Shown here in pieces: positions 1,744 to 61,316 of a stretch of DNA of 64,000 nucleotides. This stretch comes from Silvibacterium dinghuense. GTDB taxonomy: Bacteria; Acidobacteriota; Terriglobia; Terriglobales; Acidobacteriaceae. The notes below the pieces were generated by a model that searched no databases, had not been told where the DNA came from, and saw only the letters and a list, made by a program, of their open reading frames with translations. Position 1 is the stretch's first letter, and every line of letters starts with the position of its first letter. The stretch is taken from assembly GCF_004123295.1 (NCBI RefSeq), contig NZ_SDMK01000001.1, positions 2,108,001 to 2,172,000 of the forward strand, given 5' to 3'. A program made the translations under genes and the position numbers.

Positions 1744-1811
1744 GGGCGAATCCTTCGAGCGGGAGAGTGATGTCAGGGTACAGGCGGAACAAGTGAGGCG
1801 AATCGGATGCC

Positions 1812-2875: not shown

Positions 2876-2891
2876 TGTTCCACGTGGAACG
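2876..2891. promoter_or_regulatory. parS site 1 (ParB binding)
   Basis: TGTTCCACGTGGAACG, a palindrome around CACGTG very close to the classical parS TGTTTCACGTGAAACA. It lies in the intergenic region between parA and rsmG, on the parA side of the MITE-like element. Three further copies lie at 3194, 3362 and 3399. Confidence 0.92.
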
Positions 2892-2910
2892 CAGCGGCGC
2901 TATGGGCTAA

Positions 2911-3178: not shown

Positions 3179-3193
3179 TAAGTGGCGAGGAAA

Positions 3194-3209
3194 TGTTCCA
3201 CGTGGAACA
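3194..3209. promoter_or_regulatory. parS site 2 (ParB binding)
   Basis: TGTTCCACGTGGAACA, a perfect 16-base palindrome, located 13 bases beyond the TAA repeat flanking the MITE-like element. Confidence 0.94.
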
Positions 3210-3361
3210 AGAGAAAGAAAGAGGTTCTTTCTCTCTGCATAAGCACGGGGAGAGAACCGAAGCCAGCTATCCGTGGAGCACAGGCTTGGGAATGGAGCCT
3301 TGAGTGCTTCCAGGCGATGTCGCAGGTGATATCGCGGGGATTTTTGAAGAGGAAGAGAAGA

Positions 3362-3377
3362 TGTTCCACGTGGAACA
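3362..3377. promoter_or_regulatory. parS site 3 (ParB binding)
   Basis: TGTTCCACGTGGAACA, identical to site 2, 168 bases further along and close to the 3' end of rsmG. Confidence 0.94.
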
Positions 3378-3398
3378 TGGAAACGCAGGAGATGGGCG

Positions 3399-3414
3399 CG
3401 TTCCACGTGGAACA
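3399..3414. promoter_or_regulatory. parS site 4 (ParB binding)
   Basis: CGTTCCACGTGGAACA, the same 14-base palindromic core, ending two bases before the rsmG stop codon region. Together sites 1-4 form a cluster spanning about 540 bases. Confidence 0.92.
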
Positions 3415-3415
3415 A

Positions 3416-4063: not shown

Positions 4064-4848
4064 CGGGCAGCGTCCGCCGCGGTGCCGGAAACAGCGACAG
4101 ATTCGACGACGGAGCGCGGCTTCCAGGTCGAGGCGGCGGCGAGGAACGCGGCAAACAGGGCGCGGGAGGCTGGATCGGCGTCATAAGAGCGCTCGGGATG
4201 CCACTGTACGGCGAGAACAAAGGCCTCGCTCGTACCCTCGAGCGCCTCGATGATGCCGTCTTCACGGCTGCGGGCGGCGATGCGGAGCCGGTCTCCGGGC
4301 TGGTCGACGGCCTGGTGATGGCTGCTGTTTACCGGGAGCGGGTCTGCGGGCGTGTCGTGCCCCACAATCGCGGCCAGCCGCGTTCCGGGCTCGATAGTGA
4401 CGGAATGGGCATCCACGATGGTGCGTCCGGGAGCATGATTGACGCTCGTCGGGTGCTGGGTCGGGATGTCTTGGATGAGTGTGCCGCCGCGCCAGACGTT
4501 CCATGACTGGAAGCCGAAGCAGATGGCGAGCAGCGGTTTGTCGAGGTTTGCGGCATCCTGCATCAGCAACTCATCCACGGCTTCCCGGGCGGGATCGGTG
4601 GCATTGCAGGCCGGGATGCGGGGATGGCCGTACTTTTCCGGATCGACATCGGCTCCGCTTCCAGGGAGCAGCACGCCCTGGCAGGAAGCAGCCAGGCGGG
4701 CAACTTCGGCCGGCGATGCACTGAGAGGAACTTCGACCGGGATACCGCCGGCTGCTTCGATCGCATGGAGGTACTGCGGCAGGGAGCGGGCATTATAGGC
4801 AGCGTCGGTGCTGTGAGGAACAGGGATGGCGATGCGGGGTGCGCTCAT
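4060..4848 (-). CDS. Class I glutamine amidotransferase-like hydrolase (peptidase C26 / PuuD-like)
   Basis: Cytoplasmic gamma-glutamyl hydrolase family protein of 262 residues. The catalytic triad is visible: Cys110 in 'PLLAICFGFQSWNVWRGGTLIQD', and His217 and Glu219 in 'QWHPE'. The motif 'GVLLPGSGADVDPEKYG' near 58-73 is also typical. Relatives include gamma-glutamyl-GABA hydrolase PuuD of putrescine degradation, but no other polyamine gene is nearby, so the substrate is unknown. It lies in a minus-strand series folC, acyltransferase, this gene and rsmG, with a four-base overlap with rsmG. Confidence 0.85.
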   Translation of the reverse strand: MSAPRIAIPVPHSTDAAYNARSLPQYLHAIEAAGGIPVEVPLSASPAEVARLAASCQGVLLPGSGADVDPEKYGHPRIPACNATDPAREAVDELLMQDAANLDKPLLAICFGFQSWNVWRGGTLIQDIPTQHPTSVNHAPGRTIVDAHSVTIEPGTRLAAIVGHDTPADPLPVNSSHHQAVDQPGDRLRIAARSREDGIIEALEGTSEAFVLAVQWHPERSYDADPASRALFAAFLAAASTWKPRSVVESVAVSGTAADAAR

Positions 4849-4882
4849 GATTGTGCCTTCGATGGAACGGTCTCGAACACGC

Positions 4883-5665
4883 CTAAGTGCTCAGAACGGG
4901 CGGCTCGAGGTGAGAGTGTTGGTAGTAAAGACGGCTGATCTCGTCGCGTAGCCGGGCGGTGAGCTTGTCGAGATCGCGCATCGTATATCCGATGGTGTCG
5001 ATGGGCTCACCGACGGCAATCGTGACCGGTACGGGGTAAAAAACCGAGGTATGGATTGGGAGCAGCTCCCAGGTGCCGATCAGCGCAATGGGAACAAGGG
5101 GTACCTGGGCACGGACGGCCATAAACGCCGGTCCGTTCAGAAATTCGTCGGGGTGACCAGCGTCGGAACGGCCGCCTTCCGGGAAGATAAAGAGCGGAAG
5201 GCCGGATTTGAGTGTTCTCACGGCGGAGCTGAGGCTGCCGACCGAAGCGCGTGGGTTGCTGATATTGACCGGAACCTGGCCGGAGCGGGTGAGATGCCAG
5301 CCGATGAAAGGCAGGCTGAACAGCTCGTGGCGGGCCACGATGCGGAACTGGAACGGCAGCGCGCCAAAGATGACCGGCGTGTCCATATAGGACAAGTGGT
5401 TGGCGCAATACACGGCGACGCTGCCATTCAGGAACTGGGCATTGAGGACACGCACCCGGCTGCCGCTGATACGGGTAATGGTGCGTCCCCAGCGCTGGGC
5501 GATGGCATGTTGCTGGCGCCCGGATTTATCCCACAGGGATGCAATCAGAGACAGGCTGCCGAAGAATGCAGTGGTGAGAAAGAAGGCCGGAGCACGGAAA
5601 ACGTAATTAAAGAGCCACGTGCCGGCAGGAATGGGATTGGGACGGGGCTTGAGCGTGGGCTGCAT
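4883..5665 (-). CDS. 1-acyl-sn-glycerol-3-phosphate acyltransferase family protein (PlsC-like)
   Basis: Membrane-associated acyltransferase of 260 residues, probably making phosphatidic acid from lysophosphatidic acid. The hydrophobic segment near 22-44 anchors it. The family's catalytic H-X4-D motif is NHLSYMD (His90, Asp95), and the glycerol-phosphate binding motif is FPEGGRS (161-167). The later 'VPIALIGTWELLP' block is also typical. The start at 5665 lies 11 bases after the folC stop, and the gene is followed by the amidotransferase after 34 bases, which suggests one transcript. Exact acyl acceptor cannot be told from sequence. Confidence 0.9.
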   Translation of the reverse strand: MQPTLKPRPNPIPAGTWLFNYVFRAPAFFLTTAFFGSLSLIASLWDKSGRQQHAIAQRWGRTITRISGSRVRVLNAQFLNGSVAVYCANHLSYMDTPVIFGALPFQFRIVARHELFSLPFIGWHLTRSGQVPVNISNPRASVGSLSSAVRTLKSGLPLFIFPEGGRSDAGHPDEFLNGPAFMAVRAQVPLVPIALIGTWELLPIHTSVFYPVPVTIAVGEPIDTIGYTMRDLDKLTARLRDEISRLYYQHSHLEPPVLST

Positions 5666-5676
5666 GTCGTTTTCTT

Positions 5677-7023
5677 TCAGCGTGCCGGCTTCGTATTCAG
5701 GGTCTGGGCCATGGGACGGAGTTCTCCCACAAGGTAGACGCTGCCGGTGATGACGGTAAGGCCGGCTTCGCCGGTCAGTGCGCGGGCACGCTCGAGGGCT
5801 TCGCCCGGGCTGGCAGCAGTCTCAAAGCTCGTGCCGGTGGCGGCCATCGCGGTGGAGAGCTCCGCGAGCGTAGCCGTGCGCGGCGAGGGCACCTCGGTGA
5901 GGATAACCCTGTCGAAAAGAGGGAAAAGTATCTGCGTCATTTCGCCGATGGCTTTGTCGCGCAGACAGCCGAAGACGGCGATAAGGGGGCGCGGCTCGGG
6001 ATCGAGATGGGAAAGCGCGGCGCGCAGGGCCCAGGCTCCCGCGGGATTATGGGCGACGTCGAAGAGAATGCGGCCAATCTGCTCGAGGCGTCCGGGCCAG
6101 CGGGTGTTCCGGATGCCGGCGGCAATGGATGCCGGCGTTAATTTGTAACTGTCACTGATACGATTGCGGAGTGCCGTTGCCGCTGTGATCGCCAGGGCGA
6201 CATTGCGCTGCTGGTGCGCGCCGTGCAGAGGCGAGGCGATCTCGATGGCCTCGCCCAGCACGCGGATCGAATAGCTGTTGCTTTCCGTGGCGCGGGATGG
6301 GATGTAGTCCGCAGCATTGATGCCTTCGACGTGCAGCGCAACGGCGATCTCACCGATGGCCTGATTCGCTTCGGGATGCTGCGGAAGGGTTACGAGAACC
6401 CCATGTTCACGCAGGATGCCGGCCTTTTCGCGAGCAATGTCGGTGATGGTGAGCCCAAGCCATTCGGTGTGATCGAGCGAGATGTCGGTGATGACGGAGA
6501 CCAGCGGTTCGACGATATTGGTGGCGTCGAGACGTCCGCCCATGCCGACTTCGAGGACGGCGATATCCACACTTTCCTCGGCGAAGCTGAGGAAAGCGAG
6601 GGCGGTCATGGCCTCGAAGAAGCTGGGATGCCCAGGTAAGGAGCCTGCAGTGACGAGACGGCGGGCCATGTCATCGACCTGGAAGTACAGACGTGCGAAG
6701 GCATCGTCGCCGATTTCCCTGGGGGGATGGCCCGGGGCGAGGAACTGGATGCGCTCGTTGACGCGCGTGAGATGCGGCGAGGTATAGAGGCCGACGCGCA
6801 GACCGGAGGCCGCAAGGATGCTGGCAAGTGTGGAAGATGTGGATCCTTTGCCGTTTGTGCCCGCGACCAGCACCGAAGGGAATGCCTGCTGGGGATTGCC
6901 GAGAGCAGCGGCAAGAGCGCGCATCTGGCTGAGCTCGAACTTGCGGCGCGGCTGGCCGGGCGCAGGCGCATGAAGCTCTCCCGCGAGCGCATAAAGGCCC
7001 TCAATGGCTGCTGCGTAGGACAT
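5677..7023 (-). CDS. folC: Bifunctional dihydrofolate synthase / folylpolyglutamate synthase
   Basis: Mur-ligase-type ATP-dependent enzyme that adds glutamate to dihydropteroate and then to folates. 448 residues. The P-loop is GTNGKGSTS (about 55-63), followed by 'GLYTSPHLTRVNERIQF', the family signature. The central domain carries 'LEVGMGGRLDATNIVEPLVSVITDISLDHTEWLG' and the C-terminal domain has 'LFDVAHNPAGAWAL', which contains the conserved DxAHNP motif. The gene is the first of the minus-strand series running through the acyltransferase towards rsmG; a divergent cupin gene begins about 100 bases away. Confidence 0.96.
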   Translation of the reverse strand: MSYAAAIEGLYALAGELHAPAPGQPRRKFELSQMRALAAALGNPQQAFPSVLVAGTNGKGSTSSTLASILAASGLRVGLYTSPHLTRVNERIQFLAPGHPPREIGDDAFARLYFQVDDMARRLVTAGSLPGHPSFFEAMTALAFLSFAEESVDIAVLEVGMGGRLDATNIVEPLVSVITDISLDHTEWLGLTITDIAREKAGILREHGVLVTLPQHPEANQAIGEIAVALHVEGINAADYIPSRATESNSYSIRVLGEAIEIASPLHGAHQQRNVALAITAATALRNRISDSYKLTPASIAAGIRNTRWPGRLEQIGRILFDVAHNPAGAWALRAALSHLDPEPRPLIAVFGCLRDKAIGEMTQILFPLFDRVILTEVPSPRTATLAELSTAMAATGTSFETAASPGEALERARALTGEAGLTVITGSVYLVGELRPMAQTLNTKPAR

Positions 7024-7120
7024 AGCTCAATTTTAGTGGATGACGGGCTATTCAGACGCCCAGTCAGATCCTGTCGGATTCTGTGGCATCGCGCTGTTCT
7101 CCCAGGTCATCTCTAGAGGT

Positions 7121-7729
7121 ATGAGCATGACGCGGCGCAGGTTTGGACAGATGCTGACGGCGATGGGGCTCGCTCCCGTTGCAGGACGGATGGTTGCCGA
7201 AGGTGAGCTCTCTGCTACGAGCGGCGGCGCAGGAGATCCCCAGCTGCTGCGGCTCTCACGCAATGGATGGATGCCGAACAACGAGCATCTGCCGGTGTTG
7301 CTCTATCGCGGTGTGATTCCTGGCCATGGCGAAGATCCTGCGTCCCGTTTCGAGGCCGTCTTCGCACGGAATGGCTGGCCTCCGCAATGGCGCAATGGTG
7401 TCTACAGCTTTCATCACTATCACTCGACCGCGCACGAGGTGCTCGGCTTCGCTGCCGGACACGCGCGCATCCTGCTGGGCGGTGAGGGCGGACATGAGGT
7501 CGCCGTCGAAGCTGGGGATGTAGCCGTGTTGCCCACTGGCACGGGTCATTGCCGGCTGTCGGCCAGCGACGACTTTCTTGTCGTGGGTGCCTATCCTCCG
7601 GATCAGCAGTGGGACATCTGCCGCGCAGCGCCGGATGCAACAGCGATCGAACGCATGTCGCATCTTCCGTATCCGAAGAGTGATCCCGTTGCAGGCGCGA
7701 ATGGCGCTCTGCTGCGCACATGGAGCTGA
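7121..7729 (+). CDS. Cupin-domain protein with twin-arginine-like signal
   Basis: 202 residues from the ATG at 7121, which follows an AGAGG-like ribosome site; an upstream in-frame ATG at 7040 is less likely. The N-terminus ([19 protein letters not shown]) resembles a Tat signal. The central part is a small cupin barrel: '[23 protein letters not shown]' supplies the His-rich metal motif 1, and '[16 protein letters not shown]' the second. Homologues are loosely annotated as cupin proteins; the substrate is unknown. It lies on the same strand as, and 190 bases before, a Tat-type phosphoesterase. The intervening 190 bases show no clear gene or terminator. Confidence 0.75.
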
Positions 7730-7918
7730 AGGCATCGCAGGATCACGTTCGTTGCAAGCGAACCAGACGCGAGGCCAACCCAGGATGCGCGCGGCAGCGA
7801 GCCTTTTCACGGTTTTTTCAAGCGTTGTTGAGATGCACAGGGGCGCGGGACTTCTATAAGCATGGGCAGGTAGTGAAGACAGATTGCTGCCGGAATCAGC
7901 TTAACGGAGACCCCACCG

Positions 7919-9415
7919 ATGAGCGTAGACCGCAGATCCTTTCTGCGCAGCGCGGCAAGCCTGTCCGCTGCTGTCCTCGCCAGCACGGCAACCGATACAA
8001 AAGCGCAGACCGACATGCAGGCCGCAACGGCGCTGCTGCCATCACCCTCAAGCTCAGGGATCGAGCACATCGTTGTTGTCATGATGGAAAACCGCAGCTT
8101 CGATCATTTGCTGGGCTGGATGCCGAACGCAAATGGACGTCAGGCCGGGCTCACCTATCTGGACAACAATGGAAATCCGCAGGCGACGCACCGGCTCAAT
8201 TACTACGTGGGCTGTGAGCATCCCGACCCGGATCACTCCTATGCCGGCGGCCGCTCGGAGTACGACAACGGCAAGATGGACGGCTGGCTGCGCACGAGCA
8301 CCAACGACAGCTTCTGCATCGGCTACTACGAAGAGGCCGACCTTCCGCTTTTCGGCACTCTGGCGCGGAATTACACGACGCTGAACAACTACTTCGCGTC
8401 CATCCTCTCCTCTACGTTCCCGAACCGCGTCTTTCAGCATGCGGCGCAGACCGATCGCCTGAGCAATACGCTTGATCTCTCTTCGCTGCCGACAATATGG
8501 GACCGGCTGCAGGAAGCAGGTGTGAGCTGCCGCTACTACTACTCGAATGTCCCCTTCCTGGCCTTGTGGGGACTGAAGTATGCGGGCATCTCGAGCCTGT
8601 ATGCGCAGTTTCTTTCGGATGCAACATTGGGCAATCTGCCGGCCGTCTCTTTCGTCGATCCGTGGTTCACCATCCTCGATGATGGCCTCGGCAACGATGA
8701 CCATCCGCATGCCGACCTGCGCAAGGGTGAGATCTTTCTGCGCGAGATTGTGACGACGCTGGCGGCAAGTCCGCAGTGGAAGAATACGGTGCTGGTGATC
8801 AATCGCGACGAGTGGGGCGGGTTCTTCGATCATGTCGTGCCGCCGCGTGTGATTGCACCGAACACCGTGGATACAGATCTTGTGGACGGCAAGGCGCTGC
8901 TGGGCTGCCGCGTTCCCACGCTGGTGGTGTCGCCGTTTACGAAGGGCAATCCCGCCAAGCCGAGAATCAACTCTCTGCTCTACGACCACACTTCCGTGCT
9001 GAAGATGATCGAGTGGCGCTGGGGGCTGAGCCCGTTGACCTCACGCGATGCCTCGGATGAAGTGGCAAATCTCGCGCTGACGCTAAACTTCTCGTCGCAG
9101 GATACGAGCCTGCCCACGCTGCCCATCATCGCCGAACCACCGCTCCAGCCATGCACTCTGGACGATATCTTCGAGTCGCTCGACTCGACATCCAGCACGA
9201 GCAGCGCGGCGTCCACGACTATCGGCAGCACGGTCAGCGATGCGGCGGCACAGGTCAGTTCACCGCGCACCGTGGTGAATACACAAAAAGCCATGGCCGT
9301 TGCACAGAGCAAGCACAACAACGGTGAGGACAACGAGACGTACGACTTTTACCTGCTGCTGAAATCGGAGAACATGCAGGGCTGGACGCTGCCGGCAAAC
9401 CTGAAAGAGAAATAA
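7919..9415 (+). CDS. Secreted phospholipase C / acid phosphatase family phosphoesterase
   Basis: 498-residue member of the phosphoesterase (AcpA / non-specific phospholipase C) family of the alkaline phosphatase superfamily. A Tat signal is clear: MSVDRRSFLRSAASL, with an Ala-rich core. The catalytic metal motif is 'IEHIVVVMMENRSFDHLLGWMP' near 44-65, and 'INRDEWGGFFDHVVPPRV' plus the later 'LLYDHTSVLKMIEWRW' supply further family motifs. A GGAGA ribosome site precedes the ATG. The C-terminus after about 415 is Ser/Thr-rich and low complexity. It probably hydrolyses phospholipids or other phosphodiesters outside the cytoplasm; the true substrate is not visible. Confidence 0.92.
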   Translation: MSVDRRSFLRSAASLSAAVLASTATDTKAQTDMQAATALLPSPSSSGIEHIVVVMMENRSFDHLLGWMPNANGRQAGLTYLDNNGNPQATHRLNYYVGCEHPDPDHSYAGGRSEYDNGKMDGWLRTSTNDSFCIGYYEEADLPLFGTLARNYTTLNNYFASILSSTFPNRVFQHAAQTDRLSNTLDLSSLPTIWDRLQEAGVSCRYYYSNVPFLALWGLKYAGISSLYAQFLSDATLGNLPAVSFVDPWFTILDDGLGNDDHPHADLRKGEIFLREIVTTLAASPQWKNTVLVINRDEWGGFFDHVVPPRVIAPNTVDTDLVDGKALLGCRVPTLVVSPFTKGNPAKPRINSLLYDHTSVLKMIEWRWGLSPLTSRDASDEVANLALTLNFSSQDTSLPTLPIIAEPPLQPCTLDDIFESLDSTSSTSSAASTTIGSTVSDAAAQVSSPRTVVNTQKAMAVAQSKHNNGEDNETYDFYLLLKSENMQGWTLPANLKEK

Positions 9416-9490
9416 ATACGCAAGGCCGGTCTGAGCCGCATGACGCAGGCCGGCTTTACATCTTCTCTGACCGCAGGAGAGCGGGATCGG

Positions 9491-10381
9491 TCAGGTTGTG
9501 CCTTGATGGGGCAGCGTCCTCACGATCTCGACAAAGCGCTCCGCCAGCGGCCAGCGGTCTTTGCGCCAGGCGATACCGATGCGCCAGTACGCGCGCGGGT
9601 CGTCGAGGGAGCGATAGCGGATGCCGGGGACCCGCATGCGCTGGGTGCTGGCCGGCGCAAGACTGACGCCCATGCCGGCGCGCACCAGGTTCAGGCCGGT
9701 GAACCACTCGTTCACCTCCTGCACTACCTGCGGACTGAATCCGGCGGTATGGCAGAGGCGAAGAGCGTGCTCGTAATACGTGCTCGAGACCGAGCGTGAA
9801 ACGAGGACAAACGGGTCGTCGCGAAAGTCGCGAAGCTGAATCTTCGCGCTTGCGAGCCGCGGCTGTGCCGCAACCAGCAGCAGCTCTTCTTCGAGCACGG
9901 GAATGGCCTCGATATGCGCGGACGGACTGGGCAGGCGGATGAAGCCGACGTCGAGCGTGCCCTGAATCAGTTCTTCGATCTGGCGCGTGGTGCCGAGATC
10001 GCGAAGCTCCAGCAGAACATTCGGACAGGCCTTGCGGAATGCGAGAACCGCAGTGGGCAGGATTGCGCCGACAGCGGCGATGCCGAAGCCGACGCGCAGG
10101 CTGCCGGCTTCACCGCGTGCGGCCTGATACGCGAGAGCCTCAAATGCGGAGCCTTCGCGGACGAGGGCTCGAGCGCGTTCGAGCAGCGTTTCGCCTGCAG
10201 GCGAGAGGCGAACCATGCCGGTGGTGCGCTCAAAGAGGCGTCCCCCAATCTCGTCCTCGAGGCGCTGGATCTGGCGGGTCAGCGCGGGTTGCGAGAGGTG
10301 CAGCCGGATCGCTGCGCGGCCGTAATGGAGCTCCTCGGCGAGAACCGTGAAGGCCCGTAGCGCATCGAGTGAGAAACTCAT
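9491..10381 (-). CDS. LysR-family transcriptional regulator
   Basis: 296 residues. The winged helix-turn-helix is at the N-terminus (about 3-65): 'LDALRAFTVLAEELHYGRAA', then 'LSQPALTRQIQRLEDEIGGRLFER'. The rest is the two-lobed periplasmic-binding-like effector domain ('GFGIAAVGAILPTAVLAFRKACPNVLLELRDLG' begins it). It is divergent from the MFS transporter at 10452 with about 70 bases between starts, so control of that transporter and autoregulation are likely by the usual LysR arrangement. The effector is unknown. Confidence 0.94.
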   Translation of the reverse strand: MSFSLDALRAFTVLAEELHYGRAAIRLHLSQPALTRQIQRLEDEIGGRLFERTTGMVRLSPAGETLLERARALVREGSAFEALAYQAARGEAGSLRVGFGIAAVGAILPTAVLAFRKACPNVLLELRDLGTTRQIEELIQGTLDVGFIRLPSPSAHIEAIPVLEEELLLVAAQPRLASAKIQLRDFRDDPFVLVSRSVSSTYYEHALRLCHTAGFSPQVVQEVNEWFTGLNLVRAGMGVSLAPASTQRMRVPGIRYRSLDDPRAYWRIGIAWRKDRWPLAERFVEIVRTLPHQGTT

Positions 10382-10451
10382 GCAGAAAGGTTATCAAGAC
10401 CGCCATGGAAATTCATGATCCTGCACAGGTGGAATCGGCTCCAATAGATAT

Positions 10452-11630
10452 ATGCGGGAAAACGCAGCAAAGTGGGCGCTGGCAGCGCTGTTTCTCATCG
10501 ACGGCTTCGGCTTTGGGCTGTGGGCCGTGCACGTGCCGGTCTTCAAGCAGCGGCTGGCGCTGGGAAACGGCGAACTGAGCCTGGTGCTCTTCGGGCTGGT
10601 GCTCGGCTCGATTGTGAGCATGCCGCTGGTGGGGCAGTTGATTGCACGGATAGGCAGCCGGACGGTGGCGCGAGTGGTGGCGCTGAGCTACGGACTGATC
10701 CTGGCGGCGATGGGCATGGTGGACAGCTTCGTCATGCTGGTGGTGTGCGCTGTGCTGTATGGCGCGGCCAAGGGCGCCTTCGACGTGACCGTGAACACGC
10801 AGGCCATTGCCGTCGAACGCCACTTCGGCAAATCGATCATGAGCCCGCTGCAGGGCTGCTGGAGTCTCGGCGGACTCCTTGGCGCCGGTGCGTCGAGCCT
10901 TTCGCTGCGGCATGGTGCATCGCTGCTTCTCGATCTGGGCGGAGGGGGATTGCTGATGGTCGCAGCCACGCTGCTGGCTCTGCCGTGGCTGATCCAGGAG
11001 CCGGCAGAAGAGAGAGCAGCGGCTGCGAACGAGGGCCGTTTCCGGCTGCCGGATACAGGCACGCTGCGCCTTGCGGTGATTGCCTTCTTCGGGCTTTTTG
11101 CCGAGGGCGCGGTGGGCGACTGGGCGGCGGTCTTCCTGCGCTCGAACCTGGGTGTGAGCCTTTCGCTTGCGGCGGCAGGTTATGCAACCTATGCCGTCGC
11201 CATGGCAGGAGCACGTTTCAGTGGACATTGGCTGCTGCGCTGGCTCTCACCGGCACAGGCGCTGGCTGCGAGCGGTGGTTTGCTGGCGCTGGGCTTTGGC
11301 GCAACGGTGACGCTGCATCATTGGGCCGCTGCGCTGGTGGGTCTGGTGCTGACAGGGTTCGGTATGGCGAATATCGTGCCGGTGGTCTTCACCGCGGTGG
11401 CGCGGACGACGAAGATCGGCGCCGGTCCTGCGATCTCGGCCGTCTCCACGGTGGGATACTTCGGCTTTCTCGCCGGTCCGCCTCTGATCGGCTGGGTTGC
11501 GGTCCATATCGGTCTCGAAAAGGCACTGGGACTGGTGGTTCTTTCCGGCGTAGCGGTCGCCTTCGGCCCGTTGTTGATGGCGCGGCAGCCGGACCGCGAA
11601 CGCGAACAGGATGCGGTGCCGGTAGCCTGA
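10452..11630 (+). CDS. Major facilitator superfamily transporter (YbjJ-like)
   Basis: 392-residue inner-membrane protein with about twelve hydrophobic segments beginning at 'ALFLIDGFGFGLWAVHVPVF'. The first cytoplasmic loop has the MFS-type 'GQLIARIGSRTVARVV' between segments 2 and 3. The sequence 'TQAIAVERHFGKSIMSPLQGCWSLGGLLGAG' resembles the YbjJ/sugar-MFS subgroup. Divergent from a LysR regulator, which probably controls it. Substrate and direction of transport cannot be told from the sequence. Confidence 0.88.
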   Translation: MRENAAKWALAALFLIDGFGFGLWAVHVPVFKQRLALGNGELSLVLFGLVLGSIVSMPLVGQLIARIGSRTVARVVALSYGLILAAMGMVDSFVMLVVCAVLYGAAKGAFDVTVNTQAIAVERHFGKSIMSPLQGCWSLGGLLGAGASSLSLRHGASLLLDLGGGGLLMVAATLLALPWLIQEPAEERAAAANEGRFRLPDTGTLRLAVIAFFGLFAEGAVGDWAAVFLRSNLGVSLSLAAAGYATYAVAMAGARFSGHWLLRWLSPAQALAASGGLLALGFGATVTLHHWAAALVGLVLTGFGMANIVPVVFTAVARTTKIGAGPAISAVSTVGYFGFLAGPPLIGWVAVHIGLEKALGLVVLSGVAVAFGPLLMARQPDREREQDAVPVA

Positions 11631-53376: not shown

Positions 53377-56300
53377 TTAAAACAACAGCTTCAATCCGAA
53401 CTGAATCTGCCGTGAGGTCGATGCCGTGGCTGTAATGACGCCCGCCGTCGGGGAAGGCGTATCGCCGGCAGCGGTGTAGACCACCTCGTTCGGTGTGCCG
53501 AAGTTGGTGTGGTTCAGCACGTTGAAAAACTCGGCGCGAAACTGCGCGCGGAGATTTTCGAAGAGCTGCGTCTCTTTGCGTGCCGAGACATCGAGGTTGG
53601 CGAAGCCGGGGCCGACCAGCGAATTACGCCCCGCATTGCCGTATGTTCCGCTGACCGGGTTCGAGAAGGCAGCCGGGTTGAAGTACTGGGTCGGCCCACC
53701 CTGGATCACTTTGCCGTGGAAGTCAGGATTCACGTTGGGGCGGATGGGATCGCGGCTGTCGCCATTGTTCGTCGGGTTGTAGCCGAGCTGCGCAGTAAAG
53801 GGAAAGCCGGATTGCAGTGTGGCAATGCCGCTCAGGCTCCAGCCGTGAACAATATTCCGCTGCCAGGCGCTGCCGCCCGCGTGACCAAAAGGCAGGTCCC
53901 AGGTTCCGTTGATCACGGCGAGATTGCGGATGTCGGTCGAGGCCGGTCCCCAGTCGAGCTTGGGCCGGTTGGGGAACATGACGAAGGCCGGGGCATTTGC
54001 GCCGACGCTGGTATTCCATGCCGTGCCGTCGTCGAGGTTCTTCGACCACGTATACACGCCGCGCAGCTGGAAGCCATGGTCGAAGCGGTGATTCACGTCG
54101 ACCTCGAGACCGTGATACGCGGCGACACCCTCAGAGATCCAGGTGGTGGTATTCGAGAGCTTGGGGTTTGCGTAGGCTGCGCCCGAGGGGTAGTAGACCG
54201 TGCCGTTCGCCAGTGTCGAGGGGCACGGCGACGCCGGGCAGATCGTCGGGATCGGCTCGTTCACATCCTCGGAGAGCATGTTGTGGTAGCCGTGCGAGCC
54301 GACATAGCCAAGCGTCAGCGATGTATTCGGCGCAATCTTCTGCTCGACGCTCAGGGACCATGAGAGCACCGTCGGCGTATAGGCGTCGGGATTGACGCCG
54401 CTGGGCGAAACCTTGCTGCCCGAGGGCGGTGTGTCGCCGGGGGTGATCGAGAGCGAGCTCAGAGCGACGCTCTTGAGCGTGTTCGTGGTGTTGTAGGGCG
54501 CAGTCTGGTCGAGCCGGTAGTCGAGGTTGTCGAGCAGCGCGCGATAGATGCCGAAGCCGGTATGCACGATGGTATTGCCGTGGCCGGAGGGGTCCCAGGC
54601 CAGGCCCACGCGCGGCTCAGGCAGGAACGTTGCGCGGTTCTTCGAGAGCGCAGAGTGGCCGATGGTGGGATCGGTGTTGATCACGCCGTCGGTGAAGCCG
54701 TAATTCGAGGCGCGGTCATGCGCCTCATTCCATCCATTCGTCGACTCGAAGCGGAAACCGGCACGCAGCTCGAGATTGGGCCGCAGCTTGATCGTGTCCT
54801 GCACGAAGCCTGCGGCCTCGAGCGAGCGCCAGTTCAGCTCGGTCGGTGAAGGCACGGAGGTGAAGGTGGCAACTGTGCCCTCAAGGAACGTCGTCAGCGT
54901 GGTGAACGAAGCCTGCCCGTACTGGTCCTGCGCCATGTTGTCGTTCGACTGGATCTGCTGCAGCCATCCGCCGATCTCGATCTGGTGGCGGCCGCGTGTC
55001 CAGTAGACGTGGTCGTCATAGGTATACAGGTTGCGCGCCGTGCTCAGGTTGCTGCCGGCATTGGTGCCCGCGCCGGTGATCGTCGAAGCGCCATTGAGCG
55101 CCGTGCCGCCGCCGATCACGATTGCGCCGATCGGTCGCCCGGTGATCCAGCCGGGAAGATCGACCGGCGTAATCCCGGTAAACGCATAGGCTGCGCGCGA
55201 GAAGCCGAAGCGTGCGGTGTTGAGCAGTGTCGGCGAGAAGACATGCTGCTCCTGCACACTCGCTACCTGCTCGCGCAGGGCTTCCACATCCGAGCTGTAA
55301 GGATTCGCGGTCGGCGTGTTGGCGTCGCTGTCATCCACCGTGTAGACGCCGAAGAGCAGGTCCTTGTCGGAGATATTCCAGTCCGCGCGGGAGGTGCCGA
55401 AGTCCTCGCGGATGGTCTGCAGTGGGCTGCTATACGCCTCGCCGATGCCGCTGCCGAGGTCCGGTCCGTTCTGCACCGGCCACAGCGCGAGCAGCGGCTT
55501 GGTGGCTGCATTGACGCCGACATAGGTTTCCGTCCCGCTCGAATTGGGCAGGTATCCCAGGCGAGCCTCGTTATCCGGCACGAGCGTCACGTCGCTCAGG
55601 TGCAGGTTCTGCCGGAAGCCCTCGTAGTTGCCGAAGAGGAAGACTCTGTTTTTCCGGATGGGGCCGCCGAGCGAGCCGCCGAACTGATTGCGCTGGAACT
55701 CGGGAATATCGGTCTGGTCGAAGTAGTTGCGCGCATCGAACGCCGAGTTGCGCAGGAACTCGAAGACCGAGCCGTGCAGGCTATTTGTGCCTGACGCGGT
55801 GACAATACTCACCTGCGCGCCGGTGCGCTTGCCATACTCCGCACCGTAATCGTCGGTGACCACGTTGAACTCGCGCACGGCATCGACGCCGAGCAGCTGG
55901 CCGCTGGTGCCGCCGGGCGTCACATTGATCTCCGACGCTCCCGTGTACTCGATGCCGTTGAGCAGGAAAATATTGTCCTGCGGGCGATGGCCGCTGACCG
56001 CGAACATGTTGCCCACCGCAGAATTCGAGGTGCCGATGCTGCCCGAGCGCTGGTTCGAGTAATTCACGATCGCCGGATTCAGCGTCATCAGCTCGTCATA
56101 GCTGCGGCCGTTGAGCGGCATCTCCTTCACCTGGCGCTCGTCCACAAGCCCGCGTGTCTGCTGCGTGGAGAGCTCGACGGCCTGCGGCGCGGCGGCGACG
56201 GTGACCTGCTGCTGCACCTGGCCGACCGAGAGCGCGAAGTCGAGAACGGCCGACTGGCCGATCACCAGGCGCAGGCCATTCTGTGTGCTGGTAGTGAATC

Positions 56301-56568
56301 CGTCGCGTGAAACGGTGATGGCATAGGGGCCGACGGGCACTGACGGCGCGACATACCGGCCGGCCGCATCGGTGACGACTTCGCGCGTTACCCCCGTCTC
56401 TGTATTCCGCACCTCCACATGAGCCCCCGGAATAGCCGCACCGGTTGCATCATGCACGGTGCCGGTGATGGAGCCGCCGACCACCTGCGCGCCGAGTGGT
56501 GCGGCAGCGATGGAAAGAACGAGTGCGGCGACAGAAGAACTCAAGAGAAGGCGAAAACGAGCGGACAC
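53377..56568 (-). CDS. TonB-dependent receptor, Oar-like, preceded by a Cys-leader attenuator
   Basis: 1,063 residues from a GTG at 56568 with AGGAG six bases upstream (VSARFRLLLSSSVAALVLSIAAAPLGAQ, a signal peptide); the frame is open to 56670 but that part is untypical. Then the carboxypeptidase-regulatory domain ('GGSITGTVHDATGAAIPGAHVEVRNTETG'), plug-like region ('MPLNGRSYDELMTLNPAIVNY', 'YGAEYGKRTGAQVSIVTASGTNSLHGSVFEFLRNSAFDARNYFD') and the outer-membrane barrel ending 'QIQFGLKLLF'. The transported substrate is unknown, but the ~295-base leader carries a Cys-rich ORF and terminator, which suggests induction when cysteine is short, hence a sulfur source. It is divergent from cysDNH. Confidence 0.93.
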   Translation of the reverse strand: MSARFRLLLSSSVAALVLSIAAAPLGAQVVGGSITGTVHDATGAAIPGAHVEVRNTETGVTREVVTDAAGRYVAPSVPVGPYAITVSRDGFTTSTQNGLRLVIGQSAVLDFALSVGQVQQQVTVAAAPQAVELSTQQTRGLVDERQVKEMPLNGRSYDELMTLNPAIVNYSNQRSGSIGTSNSAVGNMFAVSGHRPQDNIFLLNGIEYTGASEINVTPGGTSGQLLGVDAVREFNVVTDDYGAEYGKRTGAQVSIVTASGTNSLHGSVFEFLRNSAFDARNYFDQTDIPEFQRNQFGGSLGGPIRKNRVFLFGNYEGFRQNLHLSDVTLVPDNEARLGYLPNSSGTETYVGVNAATKPLLALWPVQNGPDLGSGIGEAYSSPLQTIREDFGTSRADWNISDKDLLFGVYTVDDSDANTPTANPYSSDVEALREQVASVQEQHVFSPTLLNTARFGFSRAAYAFTGITPVDLPGWITGRPIGAIVIGGGTALNGASTITGAGTNAGSNLSTARNLYTYDDHVYWTRGRHQIEIGGWLQQIQSNDNMAQDQYGQASFTTLTTFLEGTVATFTSVPSPTELNWRSLEAAGFVQDTIKLRPNLELRAGFRFESTNGWNEAHDRASNYGFTDGVINTDPTIGHSALSKNRATFLPEPRVGLAWDPSGHGNTIVHTGFGIYRALLDNLDYRLDQTAPYNTTNTLKSVALSSLSITPGDTPPSGSKVSPSGVNPDAYTPTVLSWSLSVEQKIAPNTSLTLGYVGSHGYHNMLSEDVNEPIPTICPASPCPSTLANGTVYYPSGAAYANPKLSNTTTWISEGVAAYHGLEVDVNHRFDHGFQLRGVYTWSKNLDDGTAWNTSVGANAPAFVMFPNRPKLDWGPASTDIRNLAVINGTWDLPFGHAGGSAWQRNIVHGWSLSGIATLQSGFPFTAQLGYNPTNNGDSRDPIRPNVNPDFHGKVIQGGPTQYFNPAAFSNPVSGTYGNAGRNSLVGPGFANLDVSARKETQLFENLRAQFRAEFFNVLNHTNFGTPNEVVYTAAGDTPSPTAGVITATASTSRQIQFGLKLLF

Positions 56569-56719
56569 AATAGGCTCCTGGTACGAAGGGAAAGAGGGGA
56601 AGCGAAAGGCGCAGCAAGGGAAGGAAGGCGCAGGCGGAGGCTGGAGCCTCAACAACAGCCGCGGCGACAACAGGTTAAGAAGGTACGGAAGAAAGACATA
56701 AGCAGCTCGCAGGAAAATG

Positions 56720-56747
56720 AAAAAGCCGGGACAGGAGCGTCACCGGC
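56720..56747 (-). terminator. Intrinsic terminator (attenuator) in the receptor leader
   Basis: On the minus strand: GCCGG-T-GAC-(loop GCTCCT)-GTC-CCGGC, then TTTTT (56720-56724). Two stem segments 5+3 pairs with one bulge. Lies 28 bases after the Cys-leader stop and 150 bases before the receptor start, so it would stop transcription before the receptor. Its 5' arm can pair instead with 56790-56797 (CGCCGGAC on the plus strand), which lies inside the leader ORF. Confidence 0.82.
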
Positions 56748-56774
56748 GGGGTCGAGGGAGGCTGAGCGGATCAG

Positions 56775-56864
56775 CTAGAAGAGCATGTGCGCCGGACACG
56801 AGGAGGCATGAAGCTGGACTCGACAGGAGCAGAGTCGACAAGCCATGCTGGCAGCGCGAAACAT
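56775..56864 (-). CDS. Cys-rich leader peptide of the TonB-dependent receptor gene
   Basis: 29-codon ORF from ATG 56864. Begins MFRAASMACRLCSC and continues with RVQLHASSCPAHMLF: four Cys codons, three within six residues. The ATG lies exactly where transcription from the 56871-56899 promoter should start (seventh base after the -10 box), so it is probably leaderless; no Shine-Dalgarno is seen. A shorter start at 56846 keeps all Cys. The codons for Ser-Cys-Pro-Ala (TGTCCGGCG) complement the 5' arm of the terminator after the stop. A ribosome stalled at the early Cys codons would free that segment, form an antiterminator and let the receptor gene be transcribed. Not seen as a family; mechanism is inference from sequence. 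Confidence 0.62.
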   Translation of the reverse strand: MFRAASMACRLCSCRVQLHASSCPAHMLF

Positions 56865-56870
56865 AGGCTG

Positions 56871-56899
56871 ACTATAAGGTGGGCGGACCGGGGCGTCAA
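56871..56899 (-). promoter_or_regulatory. Sigma-70-type promoter of the receptor leader
   Basis: On the minus strand: -35 TTGACG (complement of 56894-56899), 17-base spacer, -10 TATAGT (complement of 56871-56876). The start point falls at about 56864, on the leader ATG. Confidence 0.72.
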
Positions 56900-56910
56900 G
56901 ATCGAAGCAA

Positions 56911-56939
56911 TTGACAATCCCCGCCCACTGCGCGACCCT
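56911..56939 (+). promoter_or_regulatory. Promoter of the cysDNH leader
   Basis: -35 TTGACA (56911-56916) is perfect; 17 bases further, GACCCT (56934-56939) keeps only the A2 and T6 positions of the -10 consensus, so it is a weak match and may need an activator. Eight bases later lies the leader ATG at 56947. The two -35 boxes of this divergent pair are only 11 bases apart (56900-56910), a site where a shared regulator could sit. Confidence 0.45.
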
Positions 56940-56946
56940 GAAAGAG

Positions 56947-57039
56947 ATGCGTTTTGCTCCAGCTGCGACCGTATTTGTGATGCACGCCTGTTGTTGTGCG
57001 TGTTGTCCCCGCACGGCCGTGTGCTCCGTGAACGCATGA
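56947..57039 (+). CDS. Poly-cysteine leader peptide of the cysDNH operon
   Basis: 30-codon ORF from ATG 56947 (alternative ATG 56980). The C-terminal part reads [19 protein letters not shown]: five of the six residues after His-Ala are Cys (TGT TGT TGT GCG TGT TGT), and a sixth Cys (TGC) follows. No Shine-Dalgarno; the ATG falls close to the expected start point, so leaderless translation is plausible. The segment GGCCGTGTGCTC (57015-57026), inside the ORF, can pair with GAGCCCACCGCC (57074-57085), the 5' arm of the next terminator. Stalling at the Cys run when charged tRNA-Cys is scarce would favour this and allow read-through into cysD. Same logic as trp/his-type attenuators; Cys leaders of this sort are known from mycobacteria. 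Confidence 0.7.
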
Positions 57040-57073
57040 TCGCATCGTAAGACCGCACTTCGATCTGTACTCC

Positions 57074-57116
57074 GAGCCCACCGCCTCCTACTACGGCGAG
57101 TGGGTTTTTGCTTTTT
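57074..57116 (+). terminator. Intrinsic terminator (attenuator) in the cysDNH leader
   Basis: CCCAC-CGCC (57077-57085) pairs with GGCG-A-GTGGG (57095-57104, one bulged A), loop of 9, followed by TTTTTGCTTTTT (57105-57116). It lies 38 bases after the Cys-leader stop and 69 bases before cysD. A classic rho-independent terminator. Confidence 0.88.
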
Positions 57117-57184: not shown

Positions 57185-58120
57185 ATGACTACCGCAGTTG
57201 CCGACATCGCCGAATCGCCCGCCTCGCGGCTGAGCCATCTCAAGCTGCTCGAGGCCGAGAGCATTCATATCTTCCGCGAGGTTGCGTCGGAGTTCGAGAA
57301 GCCGGTGATGCTCTACTCCATCGGCAAGGATTCATCGGTGATGCTGCGCCTGGCGCAGAAGGCGTTTTATCCGGGGCCGATCCCGTTTCCGCTGCTGCAC
57401 GTGGACACGGGCTACAAATTCCGCGAGATGATCGAGTTTCGCGACAACTACACGCGGGAGCTGGGGCTCGACCTGCTCGTGTGGCGCAATGAAGAGGCGC
57501 TCGCCAACGGTGCGAATCCGGTTGATCTGGGCACGCAGCGCTGCTGCGGCCTGCTCAAGACCACTGCGCTGCTCGACGGTCTGCGCTACTACGGCTTCGA
57601 CGCGGCCTTCGGCGGTGCGCGCCGCGACGAAGAGAAGTCACGCGCGAAAGAACGCATCTACTCCTTCCGCGACAAGGCCGGCCAGTGGGACCCTAAGGCA
57701 CAGCGGCCCGAGTTGTGGAACCTCTACAACTCGCGCGTCGGCCCTGGCGAGAGCATCCGCGTCTTCCCACTCTCCAACTGGACTGAGCTCGACATCTGGC
57801 ATTACATCCATCTCGAAAACATTCCCATCGTGCCGCTCTATTTCGCGAAGGAGCGCAGGATGCTGGTGCGCGGCGAGAGCCTCATCCCTGTCGAGCAGCC
57901 CTTTATCCAGGGCCTGCCCGGTGAAGAGCAGCTGGTGCGCTGCCGCCTGCGTTCGCTCGGCTGCAGTCCCTGCACCGGAGCCATCCGTTCTGACGCCGAC
58001 ACCATTCCGAAGATCATTGCCGAGCTGGTGTCCTTCCGCAGCTCCGAGCGCGCCAACCGCATCATCGATCACGACCAGGAAGGCTCGATGGAGATCAAGA
58101 AGCGCGAGGGGTATTTCTAA
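57185..58120 (+). CDS. cysD: Sulfate adenylyltransferase subunit 2 (CysD)
   Basis: 311 residues from ATG 57185 ([37 protein letters not shown]); a GTG at 57125 opens the frame earlier. Small subunit of ATP sulfurylase, forming adenosine-5'-phosphosulfate from ATP and sulfate. PP-loop '[25 protein letters not shown]' (SxGKDS), '[19 protein letters not shown]', '[20 protein letters not shown]' and '[23 protein letters not shown]' are diagnostic. First structural gene of the operon, after a Cys-leader attenuator. Stop and cysN start share one base (TAATG). Confidence 0.97.
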
Positions 58121-59736
58121 TGAGTGCAACGCCCCTTACAGAAGTGCAGGGAGAAGAACAGCTGGAGACCTTCTCGATCGAAGACTTCCTCGAGGTGGAG
58201 CAGGCCAAGGACCTGCTGCGCTTTACGACCGCAGGCAGTGTGGATGACGGCAAGTCGACGCTGATCGGCCGCCTGCTCTACGACTCGAAGAACGTCTATG
58301 AGGATCACGTCCGCTCGGTCACGCGCGTGCAGACCACGACCTCGGGCGCGAGCGCCCCGGCCATCGACTTCGCGCTGCTCACGGACGGCCTGCGCGCAGA
58401 GCGCGAGCAGGGCATCACCATCGATGTGGCCTACCGCTACTTCTCCACGCAGCGGCGCAAGTTCATCATCGCCGATACGCCGGGCCACGAGCAGTACACG
58501 CGCAACATGGCCACTGGCGCTTCGACTGCCGACCTCGCCATCATCCTCATCGACGCGCGCAAGGGCCTGCTGAACCAGTCGCGCCGTCACGCGTACATCT
58601 CGGCGCTGCTGGGCATTCCCCGCGTGGTCGCGGCCATCAACAAGATGGACCTCGTCGACTATTCGGAAGAAGTATTCAAGACGTTGTCGCGCGACTTTGC
58701 CGAGCTCGCCTCGCGCGTCGGCCTGCGCCATGTGCAGGCGATTCCGATCAGCGCGCTTGCGGGTGACAACGTGGTGCATCACGGCGACAACACGCCCTGG
58801 TACACCGGTCCCACGCTGCTCGACTACCTCGAGCATGTGCCGGTCGAGCGCAACAACTCTGCATTGTCGTTCCGTATGCCGGTGCAGCGCGTCATTCGTC
58901 CCAACCAGGATTTTCGCGGCTTCGCCGGACAGATCGCCGCAGGCACCATCCGTCGCGGCGACCGCATTGTTTCGCTGCCTTCCGGCCAGACAAGCCGCGT
59001 CGAAAAGATCGTCACCTTCGATGGCGAGCTCGAAGAAGCGAGCGCACCGCTCTCTATCACGCTCACGCTCGAAGACGAGCGCGATATCAGCCGCGGCGAT
59101 CTGATCGCGGCAGTCGATGGCGCGCCGAAAGTGGCCAATCACTTCGAAGCGTCGGTGGTGTGGCTCAACGAGCAGCCCCTCAAGGTGAATCACCGCTATC
59201 TGCTCAAGCACACTAGCCACCTGGTGCCGGCGCGGGTGCGGTCTATCCGCCATCGCATCGATATTCAAACGCTGAAGCCGCAGGCCGCGGCGGAGCTTGA
59301 TCTGAACGCGATCGGGTTGATTGAAGTTACGACCGATCGGCCGATCCTCGCCGATCTCTACCATGCGAATCGCGCCACCGGCAGCTTCATCCTCGTCGAT
59401 CCGCAGAACAATGCAACGGTAGGCGCCGGCATGATCCGGCATATTCTCACTGCGACAGTTACAAATTCCACGCTGCCGGGCATTCTTGCCGGCAACGAGG
59501 CGAGGCTCGTCGAAATCGAGAGCCTCCTGCTTGAGCGTGAAGTCGCGGTGGTGCGCACCAAGGTCGAGGACCGCGAAATCTGGCGCGCGCTCCAGCATGT
59601 AGGCGTGGTGGTGCTCGTCGAAACGCATGCAGCCGCGCTGACACGCGTGCTGGCCGATGGCTCAACGGAAGATGTTACCGCAACGGATGCGGAGTCGCTC
59701 GCGAACCTGTTGAGCGGCGAAAGCAAAGAGGAATAA
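58120..59736 (+). CDS. cysN: Sulfate adenylyltransferase subunit 1, GTPase (CysN), with C-terminal extension
   Basis: 538 residues. EF-Tu-like GTPase that energises CysD. G1 'TAGSVDDGKSTLIGRLLYD', G3 'IADTPGHEQYTRNMATGAS', G4 'AINKMDLVDYSE'; domains 2 and 3 follow ('RVIRPNQDFRGFAGQIAAGTIRRGDRI'; 'HLVPARVRSIRHRIDIQTL'). E. coli CysN has 475 residues; here about 60 extra follow the 'VGAGMIRHIL' end: 'LLEREVAVVRTKVEDREIWRALQHVGVVVLVETHAAALTRV'. This is not the APS kinase (CysC) domain found in fused CysNC, as no P-loop is present. Translationally coupled to cysD. Confidence 0.95.
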   Translation: MSATPLTEVQGEEQLETFSIEDFLEVEQAKDLLRFTTAGSVDDGKSTLIGRLLYDSKNVYEDHVRSVTRVQTTTSGASAPAIDFALLTDGLRAEREQGITIDVAYRYFSTQRRKFIIADTPGHEQYTRNMATGASTADLAIILIDARKGLLNQSRRHAYISALLGIPRVVAAINKMDLVDYSEEVFKTLSRDFAELASRVGLRHVQAIPISALAGDNVVHHGDNTPWYTGPTLLDYLEHVPVERNNSALSFRMPVQRVIRPNQDFRGFAGQIAAGTIRRGDRIVSLPSGQTSRVEKIVTFDGELEEASAPLSITLTLEDERDISRGDLIAAVDGAPKVANHFEASVVWLNEQPLKVNHRYLLKHTSHLVPARVRSIRHRIDIQTLKPQAAAELDLNAIGLIEVTTDRPILADLYHANRATGSFILVDPQNNATVGAGMIRHILTATVTNSTLPGILAGNEARLVEIESLLLEREVAVVRTKVEDREIWRALQHVGVVVLVETHAAALTRVLADGSTEDVTATDAESLANLLSGESKEE

Positions 59737-59738
59737 AC

Positions 59739-60473
59739 ATGACAACGACGGCAGAAGTAGTCATCCCCGGGCTCGCAGAGAAGATCGCAGAGGCCCAGCG
59801 CTTTGTGCGCGCGGAGCTCGCAGGCCGCGAGGCCGAAGCAGCGGTCACCAGCAGCTTCCAGGCCGAAGACATGGTCGTCGTCGATCTCGTGCGCCAGGTG
59901 CTGCCCCATGTGCCGGTGCTGTTCCTCGATACCGGCTATCACTTCCGCGCGACCTACGAGTATCGCGATCAGATGGCGCAGGCGTGGAACCTCAATCTCG
60001 TGAATGTTCTGCCGGAAAAGACCGTCGCCGAGCAGGAGGCCGAGTTCGGCATCCTCAACCAGATCGCGCCCGACAAGTGCTGTGGCCTGCGCAAGGTGGG
60101 GCCGTTGTTCAAGTCGCTCGATCCCTATGGCCTGTGGTTCACGGGCCTGCGCCGCGAGCAGGCCAAGACGCGCGCCAACCTGCAGGTCGCGGAGTTTTTC
60201 TCGCTGCCTACCGGCAAGCAGCTACGCAAGCTGAGCCCGCTGGCGGACTGGACGACGCGCGAGGTCTGGTACTACGCACAGCAGCGTGAGATTCCCTTGC
60301 TGCCGCTCTATGATCTCGGCTATTCGAGCATCGGCTGCGAACCCTGCACCAGCCTTCCGCTTAGCTCGGACGATCCGCGCTCGGGTCGCTGGGGCGGCCA
60401 TAAGGTCGAGTGCGGCATCCATATTCAGCCGGCTGCTCCTGTTGCGGGCCCAGGTACGGGCGTGGAGAAGTAG
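59739..60473 (+). CDS. cysH: Adenylyl-sulfate (APS) reductase, CysH family
   Basis: 244 residues. Reduces APS to sulfite with thioredoxin electrons. 'TSSFQAEDMVVVDLV' and 'VLFLDTGYHFRATYEYRDQM' bind the nucleotide. The Cys pair motif 'DKCCGLRKVGPL' and 'SIGCEPCTSL' supply the [4Fe-4S] ligands that mark APS-using rather than PAPS-using enzymes, and the C-terminal catalytic Cys lies in 'HKVECGIHI'. This fits the lack of any cysC nearby. Starts two bases after cysN and is followed three bases later by a TauE/SafE gene. Sulfite reductase is not in the window. Confidence 0.95.
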   Translation: MTTTAEVVIPGLAEKIAEAQRFVRAELAGREAEAAVTSSFQAEDMVVVDLVRQVLPHVPVLFLDTGYHFRATYEYRDQMAQAWNLNLVNVLPEKTVAEQEAEFGILNQIAPDKCCGLRKVGPLFKSLDPYGLWFTGLRREQAKTRANLQVAEFFSLPTGKQLRKLSPLADWTTREVWYYAQQREIPLLPLYDLGYSSIGCEPCTSLPLSSDDPRSGRWGGHKVECGIHIQPAAPVAGPGTGVEK

Positions 60474-60476
60474 CAC

Positions 60477-61316
60477 ATGGAATTCGGACTGGGCTTTCTC
60501 ATCGCGTTCATCATTGCCATTACCGGCGTAGGCGCGGGCACCATCACCGCGCCGCTGCTGATCCTGGTGCTGCATGTGCCGATCGCGGTCAGCGTGGGCA
60601 CGGCGCTGGCGTATTCGACCGCGGTGAAAGCTGTTGTCGTGCCCTTGCAGGTGATGCGCAAGCAGATCAACTGGAAGGTGCTGGCTGTCATGCTGGCAGG
60701 AGGACTCCCCGGCGTCATCGTGGGCACGCTGCTCTTCAAGCGCTTCGGCGCACTCAAGGGGCATGCCTTCTTCTTTGGCGCGCTCGGCACGGTCATCGTC
60801 TTTTCGTCGGCGTGGCATCTCTTCCGGCACTTCCGTCCGAATGCCATCTCCGGCCATCGTCCTGCACGGATGAAGACGATCGGCGCGCTGATGTTCCCCA
60901 TCGCCGCCGAGGTCGGCTTCTCGTCCTCCGGCGCAGGAGCGCTCGGATCGCTGGCGCTCATGAGCCTTTCGCCATTGAGCGCTGCGCAGGTGGTTGGCAC
61001 CGATCTGGCCTTCGCCTTTTGCGTAACGCTGTTGGGCAGTGGTCTGCACTTTGCCGACGGCAGCATTGATAAAGCGCTGCTGGTGAAGCTGGTGATCGGT
61101 GGACTGGTGGGCGCGCTGGCGGGGTCGGCCGTTGCGCCGCGTGTGCCGAACAAGCAGCTTCGGCTGGCGCTGTCGGTGGTGTTGCTGGCGCTGGGATTGC
61201 AGTTCTGCTACCAGGCTGTAGCCAAGCAACTCAGCACGCACAGCTCAAATGGCCGCTCGGCTGCGGTGCATGGCGCGGAGCCGCATGCGCTGGCGCTGGC
61301 GCATCCGCAGCAATAA
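60477..61316 (+). CDS. TauE/SafE family sulfite exporter-like permease
   Basis: 279-residue inner-membrane protein with about eight hydrophobic segments, TauE/SafE (DUF81) type: 'GLGFLIAFIIAITGVGAGTITAPLLILVLHVPIAVSVGTALAYSTAVKAVVVPLQV', then a second repeat 'VGFSSSGAGALGSLALMSLSPLSAAQVVGTDLAFAFCVTLLGSGLHF'. In an operon with APS reductase it probably moves sulfite or a related anion, either exporting excess sulfite or importing a sulfur source; direction is not visible. Three bases separate it from cysH, so it is the last gene of the cys operon. The C-terminus is a soluble tail (after about 255). Confidence 0.9.
   Translation: MEFGLGFLIAFIIAITGVGAGTITAPLLILVLHVPIAVSVGTALAYSTAVKAVVVPLQVMRKQINWKVLAVMLAGGLPGVIVGTLLFKRFGALKGHAFFFGALGTVIVFSSAWHLFRHFRPNAISGHRPARMKTIGALMFPIAAEVGFSSSGAGALGSLALMSLSPLSAAQVVGTDLAFAFCVTLLGSGLHFADGSIDKALLVKLVIGGLVGALAGSAVAPRVPNKQLRLALSVVLLALGLQFCYQAVAKQLSTHSSNGRSAAVHGAEPHALALAHPQQ

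Follow-up and report, generated by a model that had tools for sequence, protein, structure and literature searches.

Cysteine-codon-rich leaders as predicted attenuators of sulfate-assimilation and outer-membrane receptor genes in an acidobacterium

The cysD gene and a divergently oriented TonB-type receptor gene of a soil acidobacterium are very probably each preceded by a cysteine-responsive, ribosome-mediated attenuator, and the bacterium appears to turn on sulfate assimilation together with this outer-membrane receptor at cysteine shortage. On both strands of the window (the whole stretch of DNA analysed, 64,000 nucleotides), a Cys-rich short ORF, an intrinsic terminator and a gene follow one another, as a sequence-only reading had pointed out, and comparative tests place this arrangement far above chance. 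The attenuation logic advanced in that reading is supported by conserved Cys ORFs, covarying terminators and matched antiterminators. Its count of one leader per strand holds for cysD; the receptor is preceded by a tandem pair of Cys ORFs, of which the second (ORF2, 56699–56649, minus strand) had been overlooked. Beyond the features then listed, promoter-like −35 and −10 elements lie directly 5′ of both leader ATGs.

Organization of the divergent locus

On the plus strand, the cysD leader is a 30-residue ORF (56947–57039) containing a CCCACC run, the proposed stall site. Its start at ATG 56947 is favoured by homology and promoter spacing, with an alternative in-frame ATG at 56980. The putative promoter (56911–56939) comprises TTGACA (56911–56916), a 17-nt spacer and a poor −10 element, GACCCT (56934–56939), 7 nt from the leader ATG; TTGACA, and an ATG 5–12 nt past a −10-like box, are repeated 5′ of orthologous cysD leaders. 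Folding with the ribosome at different positions defines an antiterminator segment within the leader (57015–57026), 3′ of its Cys cluster, and the stem of an intrinsic terminator, GAGCCCACCGCC...GGCGAGTGGGTTTTT (57074–57108; −19 kcal/mol, z −4.2, with covariation), begins 34 nt after the leader stop codon. Four closely packed plus-strand genes follow: cysD, encoding sulfate adenylyltransferase subunit 2 with a PAPS_reduct domain (57185–58120), cysN, encoding the GTP-binding sulfate adenylyltransferase subunit (58120–59736), a gene for a cysH-type PAPS/APS reductase (59739–60473) and, as the final gene of the apparent operon, one for a TauE/SafE sulfite-exporter-family protein (60477–61316).

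On the minus strand, a putative promoter (56871–56899) made up of TTGACG, 17 nt and TATAGT, matching at 10 of 12 positions, ends 6 nt before the ATG of ORF1, a box-to-ATG spacing found again in orthologues. ORF1, identified by translation and orthologue comparison, encodes MFRAASMACRLCSCRVQLHASSCPAHMLF (56775–56864) and includes a candidate antiterminator segment (56790–56797), supported by folding and matched duplexes, able to form a duplex with the 5′ arm of the intrinsic terminator GCCGGTGACGCTCCTGTCCCGGCTTTTT (56720–56747; −14 kcal/mol, z −4.1), located 27 nt past the ORF1 stop codon. Beyond this terminator, orthologue comparison defines ORF2 (56649–56699), which encodes MSFFRTFLTCCRRGCC and whose run of Cys codons borders the stop codon, and base composition marks the C-rich, G-poor spacer that follows (56581–56648) as a candidate Rho-binding region. 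The receptor gene itself (53377–56568) has a GTG start at 56568 preceded by AGGAG (56579–56575), and encodes a TonB-dependent-receptor-like protein (CarboxypepD_reg and OMP_b-brl_4).

In the proposed mechanism, a near-leaderless mRNA would start at a short ORF bearing a run of Cys codons. When Cys-tRNA is plentiful, the ribosome would reach the stop codon and mask the antiterminator segment, allowing the terminator to fold and RNA polymerase to halt before cysD or the receptor gene. With scarce Cys-tRNA, the ribosome would stall on the Cys run and the downstream leader segment would capture the 5′ arm of the terminator, giving read-through. The receptor transcript would face a second checkpoint past the terminator, where the ribosome on ORF2 would have to be slowed too and, once stalled, would probably shield the C-rich Rho-loading spacer in a tnaC-like manner. 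We infer from sequence comparison that the leaders function in sulfur regulation, and with this the transcription starts, the translation of the ORFs, Cys-tRNA as the signal, a role for Rho and the uptake of sulfur compounds by the receptor.

Terminators and antiterminators

Terminators with ΔG < −12 follow 28 of the 50 cysD leaders, compared with 7.5% of shuffles, and about 22 of the 50 have no intrinsic terminator. Eight receptor orthologues, the window counted, carry a terminator after ORF1; beyond the closest clade, the majority of receptor leaders lack an intrinsic one. The outer six base pairs of the terminator are paired in 97% of cases, as against at most 50% when the arms are slid, and contain 13 two-sided changes, as against 4.0 in shuffled and at most 3 in slid versions. 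The intrinsic terminator thus stands as the earlier proposed switch for the window and its closest clade, in which both terminators and covariation are kept along with the Cys codons, and is absent from many orthologues, which probably use Rho or another route.

The predicted pairing of 57015–57026 with 57074–57085 on the plus strand is present, with 2 mismatches in 12 positions, and that of 56797–56790 with the 5′ arm of the minus-strand terminator exists as well. In a folding test comparing the RNA left free by a ribosome at a Cys codon with that left free by one at the stop codon, the mean probability that the terminator 5′ arm is captured by the upstream leader was 0.77 with the ribosome waiting at whichever Cys codon was best placed and 0.24 at the stop. 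With a fixed stall site, the stalled-minus-stop difference was 0.52, compared with 0.15 after shuffling of the intervening sequence (Fisher p = 4 × 10−11 over 34 loci, an optimistic value, the loci being related). At the window cysD, the 5′ arm is paired upstream with a probability of 0.80 with the ribosome at Cys and 0.04 at the stop; with a fixed stall site, the difference at this locus taken alone amounts to 0.75 (p = 0.05 against shuffles). The window receptor antiterminator is weak on its own (ΔP 0.23, p = 0.46); that of receptor ORF1 is strong in L101, L104, L108 and L109. Duplexes between the leader stretch 3′ of the first Cys cluster and the terminator arm of the same locus are more stable than those with the arms of other loci by 2.4 kcal/mol (permutation p < 1/5,000, again among related loci). 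An antiterminator that depends on ribosome position and excludes the terminator was thus predicted for the locus set taken together, the window cysD included. Searches of Rfam up to an E value of 10 gave no match for a known riboswitch or T-box, and NCBIfam leader-peptide models gave none.

ORF2 and a second leader architecture

The Cys cluster of ORF2 lies 0–3 residues from the stop codon in 24 of 24 orthologues, with no terminator downstream, and ORF1 leaders with a terminator have 6–19 residues between their Cys cluster and their end. Among cysD leaders, Cys-to-stop distance was not significantly related to terminator absence (p = 0.056). The spacer after ORF2 has C and G fractions of 0.36 and 0.20 across the clade, compared with 0.28 and 0.27 in paralogues (p = 1.8 × 10−5); because it is C-rich, Rho control of ORF2 is plausible, with Rho acting on this spacer. 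In the Escherichia coli tnaC leader, a Rho-dependent attenuator, stalling takes place where a short ORF ends, and a C-rich region lies past the stop codon. ORF2 has the same geometry, although its proposed stall would arise from hungry Cys codons, whereas that of tnaC arises from tryptophan binding.

Leaders with Cys at the stop, which mycobacteria have likewise, would also suit translational attenuation, in which a hairpin hides the downstream ribosome-binding site until a stalled ribosome frees it, as is reportedly the case in Mycobacterium smegmatis. In the window, GGAGCCT at the receptor SD has a potential pairing partner in AGGCTCC, past ORF2. Across the clade, however, predicted SD pairing was 0.76 in the absence of a stalled ribosome and 0.70 in its presence, with no systematic change, and this pairing was dropped as a sequestration candidate, not being general across the clade. 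Sequestration of the ribosome site, freed by a stalled ribosome, was therefore not encountered after ORF2, in which these leaders differ from the mycobacterial ribulon, and terminators, where present, account for the data. We consider translational attenuation an unlikely general explanation, although it may hold for terminator-less leaders.

There are several genomes in which ORF2 occurs alone, overlapping or trailing the end of a YeiH-type gene (PF03601), 5′ of the receptor. At L281–L284 the PF03601 gene is followed by a receptor orthologue with ORF2, and a GTP-type PEP carboxykinase gene lies ahead of the YeiH gene in L281 and probably in L282.

Conservation and codon usage of the leaders

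A search of 150 genomes of the same family located CysD in 63 of them, and 66 loci were compared. An ORF of at most 50 residues with three or more Cys within 8 codons, in the 280 nt upstream, precedes cysD at 50 of the 66 loci, compared with 8.8% of dinucleotide shuffles; stricter ORFs, with four or more Cys, occur in 36 cases, as against 0.9% in shuffles. By the same measure, the opposite strand has such an ORF at only 2 of 66 loci and the region farther upstream at only 3 of 64; 16 of the 66 cysD loci have no leader. In one cysD group (L023–L042, approximately 73–81% identity), Cys leaders are often kept and intrinsic terminators mostly missing. Outside the family, cysD genes of other acidobacterial families have Cys-rich leader ORFs at L183, L184 and L189, and a weaker one at L186.

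Cys-dense ORFs precede 27 of about 30 receptor orthologues, mostly two in tandem, with only 2 of 30 on the opposite strand and just 1 of 18 in a paralogous receptor clade (approximately 50–57% identity). Among 30 other receptors of the same genome, 4 have any candidate leader, one of them convincing. The back-to-back layout that had been emphasized earlier is kept in about 10 genomes; receptor leaders also persist where cysD is located elsewhere and can thus do without cysD as a neighbour.

The ratio of TGT to TGC codons is 227:86 in cysD leaders and 165:44 in receptor leaders, as against 19:266 in cysD genes, which corresponds to a TGT share of 73–79% in leaders and 7% in cysD genes. Within one group of leaders that align without gaps, 87% of comparisons agree in Cys columns and 57% at other residues, and codon differences comprise 107 nonsynonymous and 29 synonymous changes. 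Because Cys is kept while other residues change freely, the codon rather than the peptide would seem to matter; this pattern suits sensing at the level of codons and speaks against a conserved peptide that binds metal or causes arrest. Control of the receptor and cys genes by Cys-rich nascent peptides that sense metal or redox state, and not Cys-tRNA, has a model in the CruR uORF, which senses copper through CXXC and combines this motif with Rho termination 5′ of a TonB transporter (PMC9426467), and the excess of C over G in the spacer after ORF2 would be in keeping with it. The acidobacterial leader peptides, however, are short (about 13–50 residues), lack conserved Cys spacing and diverge freely at non-Cys positions; their strong TGT bias indicates selection at the codon level, and the controlled genes are sulfur genes. 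No RAPP-type arrest motif was found in the leader translations, and the combination of CXXC and C-terminal RAPP that characterizes DUF2946 uORFs was not seen; peptide sensing of this kind is highly improbable here. That GC-rich sequence produced the Cys runs by chance, with hairpins that terminate upstream genes in the usual way, is scarcely credible: short ORFs abound and GC-rich DNA readily forms structure, but control strands, control regions, paralogous receptors and shuffles were all negative, leader codon bias is opposite to that of genes, terminators covary and exceed those in shuffles, and the flanking genes in the window diverge, leaving no upstream transcript to terminate there.

In most leaders, a TATAGT-like box ends 5–12 nt 5′ of the ATG; given this proximity, the leader mRNA probably begins at or beside the start codon, with leaderless translation as in mycobacteria.

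Relation to known attenuators

Cysteine attenuation is already known from actinobacteria. Mycobacterial Cys leaders were predicted by Seliverstov et al. (2005), who proposed Rho for those of ORF2 shape and found no conserved terminator (PMC1262725), and poly-Cys leaderless short ORFs 5′ of mycobacterial cysteine and sulfur operons are attributed to Canestrari et al. (2020) as cited in PMC13236596. The acidobacterial leaders resemble these in their putatively near-leaderless Cys-run ORFs ahead of sulfur or cysteine operons, in the several loci per genome that would respond jointly, and in the many leaders with a Cys run close to the stop codon. They differ in that many have intrinsic terminators and antiterminators, in targets that include outer-membrane receptors and sulfatases, and in the use of two leaders in tandem. 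With the trp and his attenuators they share a leader peptide rich in the regulated amino acid, an antiterminator and an intrinsic terminator, and they depart from them in the proposed cysteine signal, the apparent leaderless start and targets beyond biosynthesis.

A back-to-back pair of such switches, one of them governing the receptor, had been put forward as new. An upstream ORF controlling a TonB-dependent transporter gene has a precedent in the CruR/DUF2946 copper uORF ahead of bfrG in Bordetella (PMC9426467), which, unlike the present leaders, is a longer exported protein with CXXC and RAPP that responds to copper; what is novel is the proposed sensing of cysteine ahead of a receptor, together with the tandem arrangement and the connection to sulfatases. 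In the literature searched, which had little subscription coverage, no description of cysteine-tRNA attenuation of TonB-type receptors or sulfatases was found. Relative to the actinobacterial cases, novelty lies in the phylum, in the form with an intrinsic terminator, in receptors and sulfatases as targets, and in the placing of two leaders in tandem on one mRNA. These findings extend cysteine-tRNA attenuation to a large soil phylum and provide a natural set of two architectures, one with an intrinsic terminator and an internal Cys cluster and the other with stop-proximal Cys and no terminator, sometimes placed in series on one mRNA, which raises the question of why both evolved.

Further leaders and a wider regulon

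The genome containing the window was searched with the patterns TGTTGTTGT and TGTTGT-N-TGTTGT, an incomplete search that catches only TGT-rich leaders. Two additional TGT-rich poly-Cys leaders were found, each heading a receptor and sulfatase operon. The first, MSCCRKSCCCRASRRAGSRGVSFSASL (contig 4, 404499, minus strand), has promoter-like boxes and a strong terminator and lies 5′ of two same-strand genes, one for a sulfatase and one for an OMP_b-brl_4 receptor (L297, about 6418–11500). The second, MVFQTSTCCCHSSQACPVGSSDRVSVCCL (contig 6, 37370, minus strand), with 6 TGT and 0 TGC codons, lies 5′ of genes for a receptor, a class I/II aminotransferase and a sulfatase (L298, about 973–7371). A further candidate, L177, proved to be a chance frame within a gene.

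Sulfur loci with poly-Cys leaders in this one genome thus comprise cysD, the window receptor and the two receptor–sulfatase operons. A broader proposition, on which we are evenly divided, is that Acidobacteria possess a cysteine-supply regulon free of regulator proteins, in which independent poly-Cys leaders would jointly control sulfate assimilation along with several outer-membrane receptors and sulfatases; the cys-linked receptor would pass two different checkpoints in turn, an intrinsic terminator followed by a leader with Cys close to its stop that acts on Rho, and be made only under sustained cysteine shortage. Poly-Cys leaders could be used for predicting sulfur-responsive genes, and they hint at a function, namely the scavenging of sulfur, in branches of the OMP_b-brl_4 receptor family, which has about 65 members in this 5.1-Mb genome.

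In two genomes of another genus, homologous sulfatases have 34-residue leaders (L275 and L276) that end in PPCCCCR or AFCCCR directly before the stop codon and lie at −290 to −183 relative to the sulfatase.
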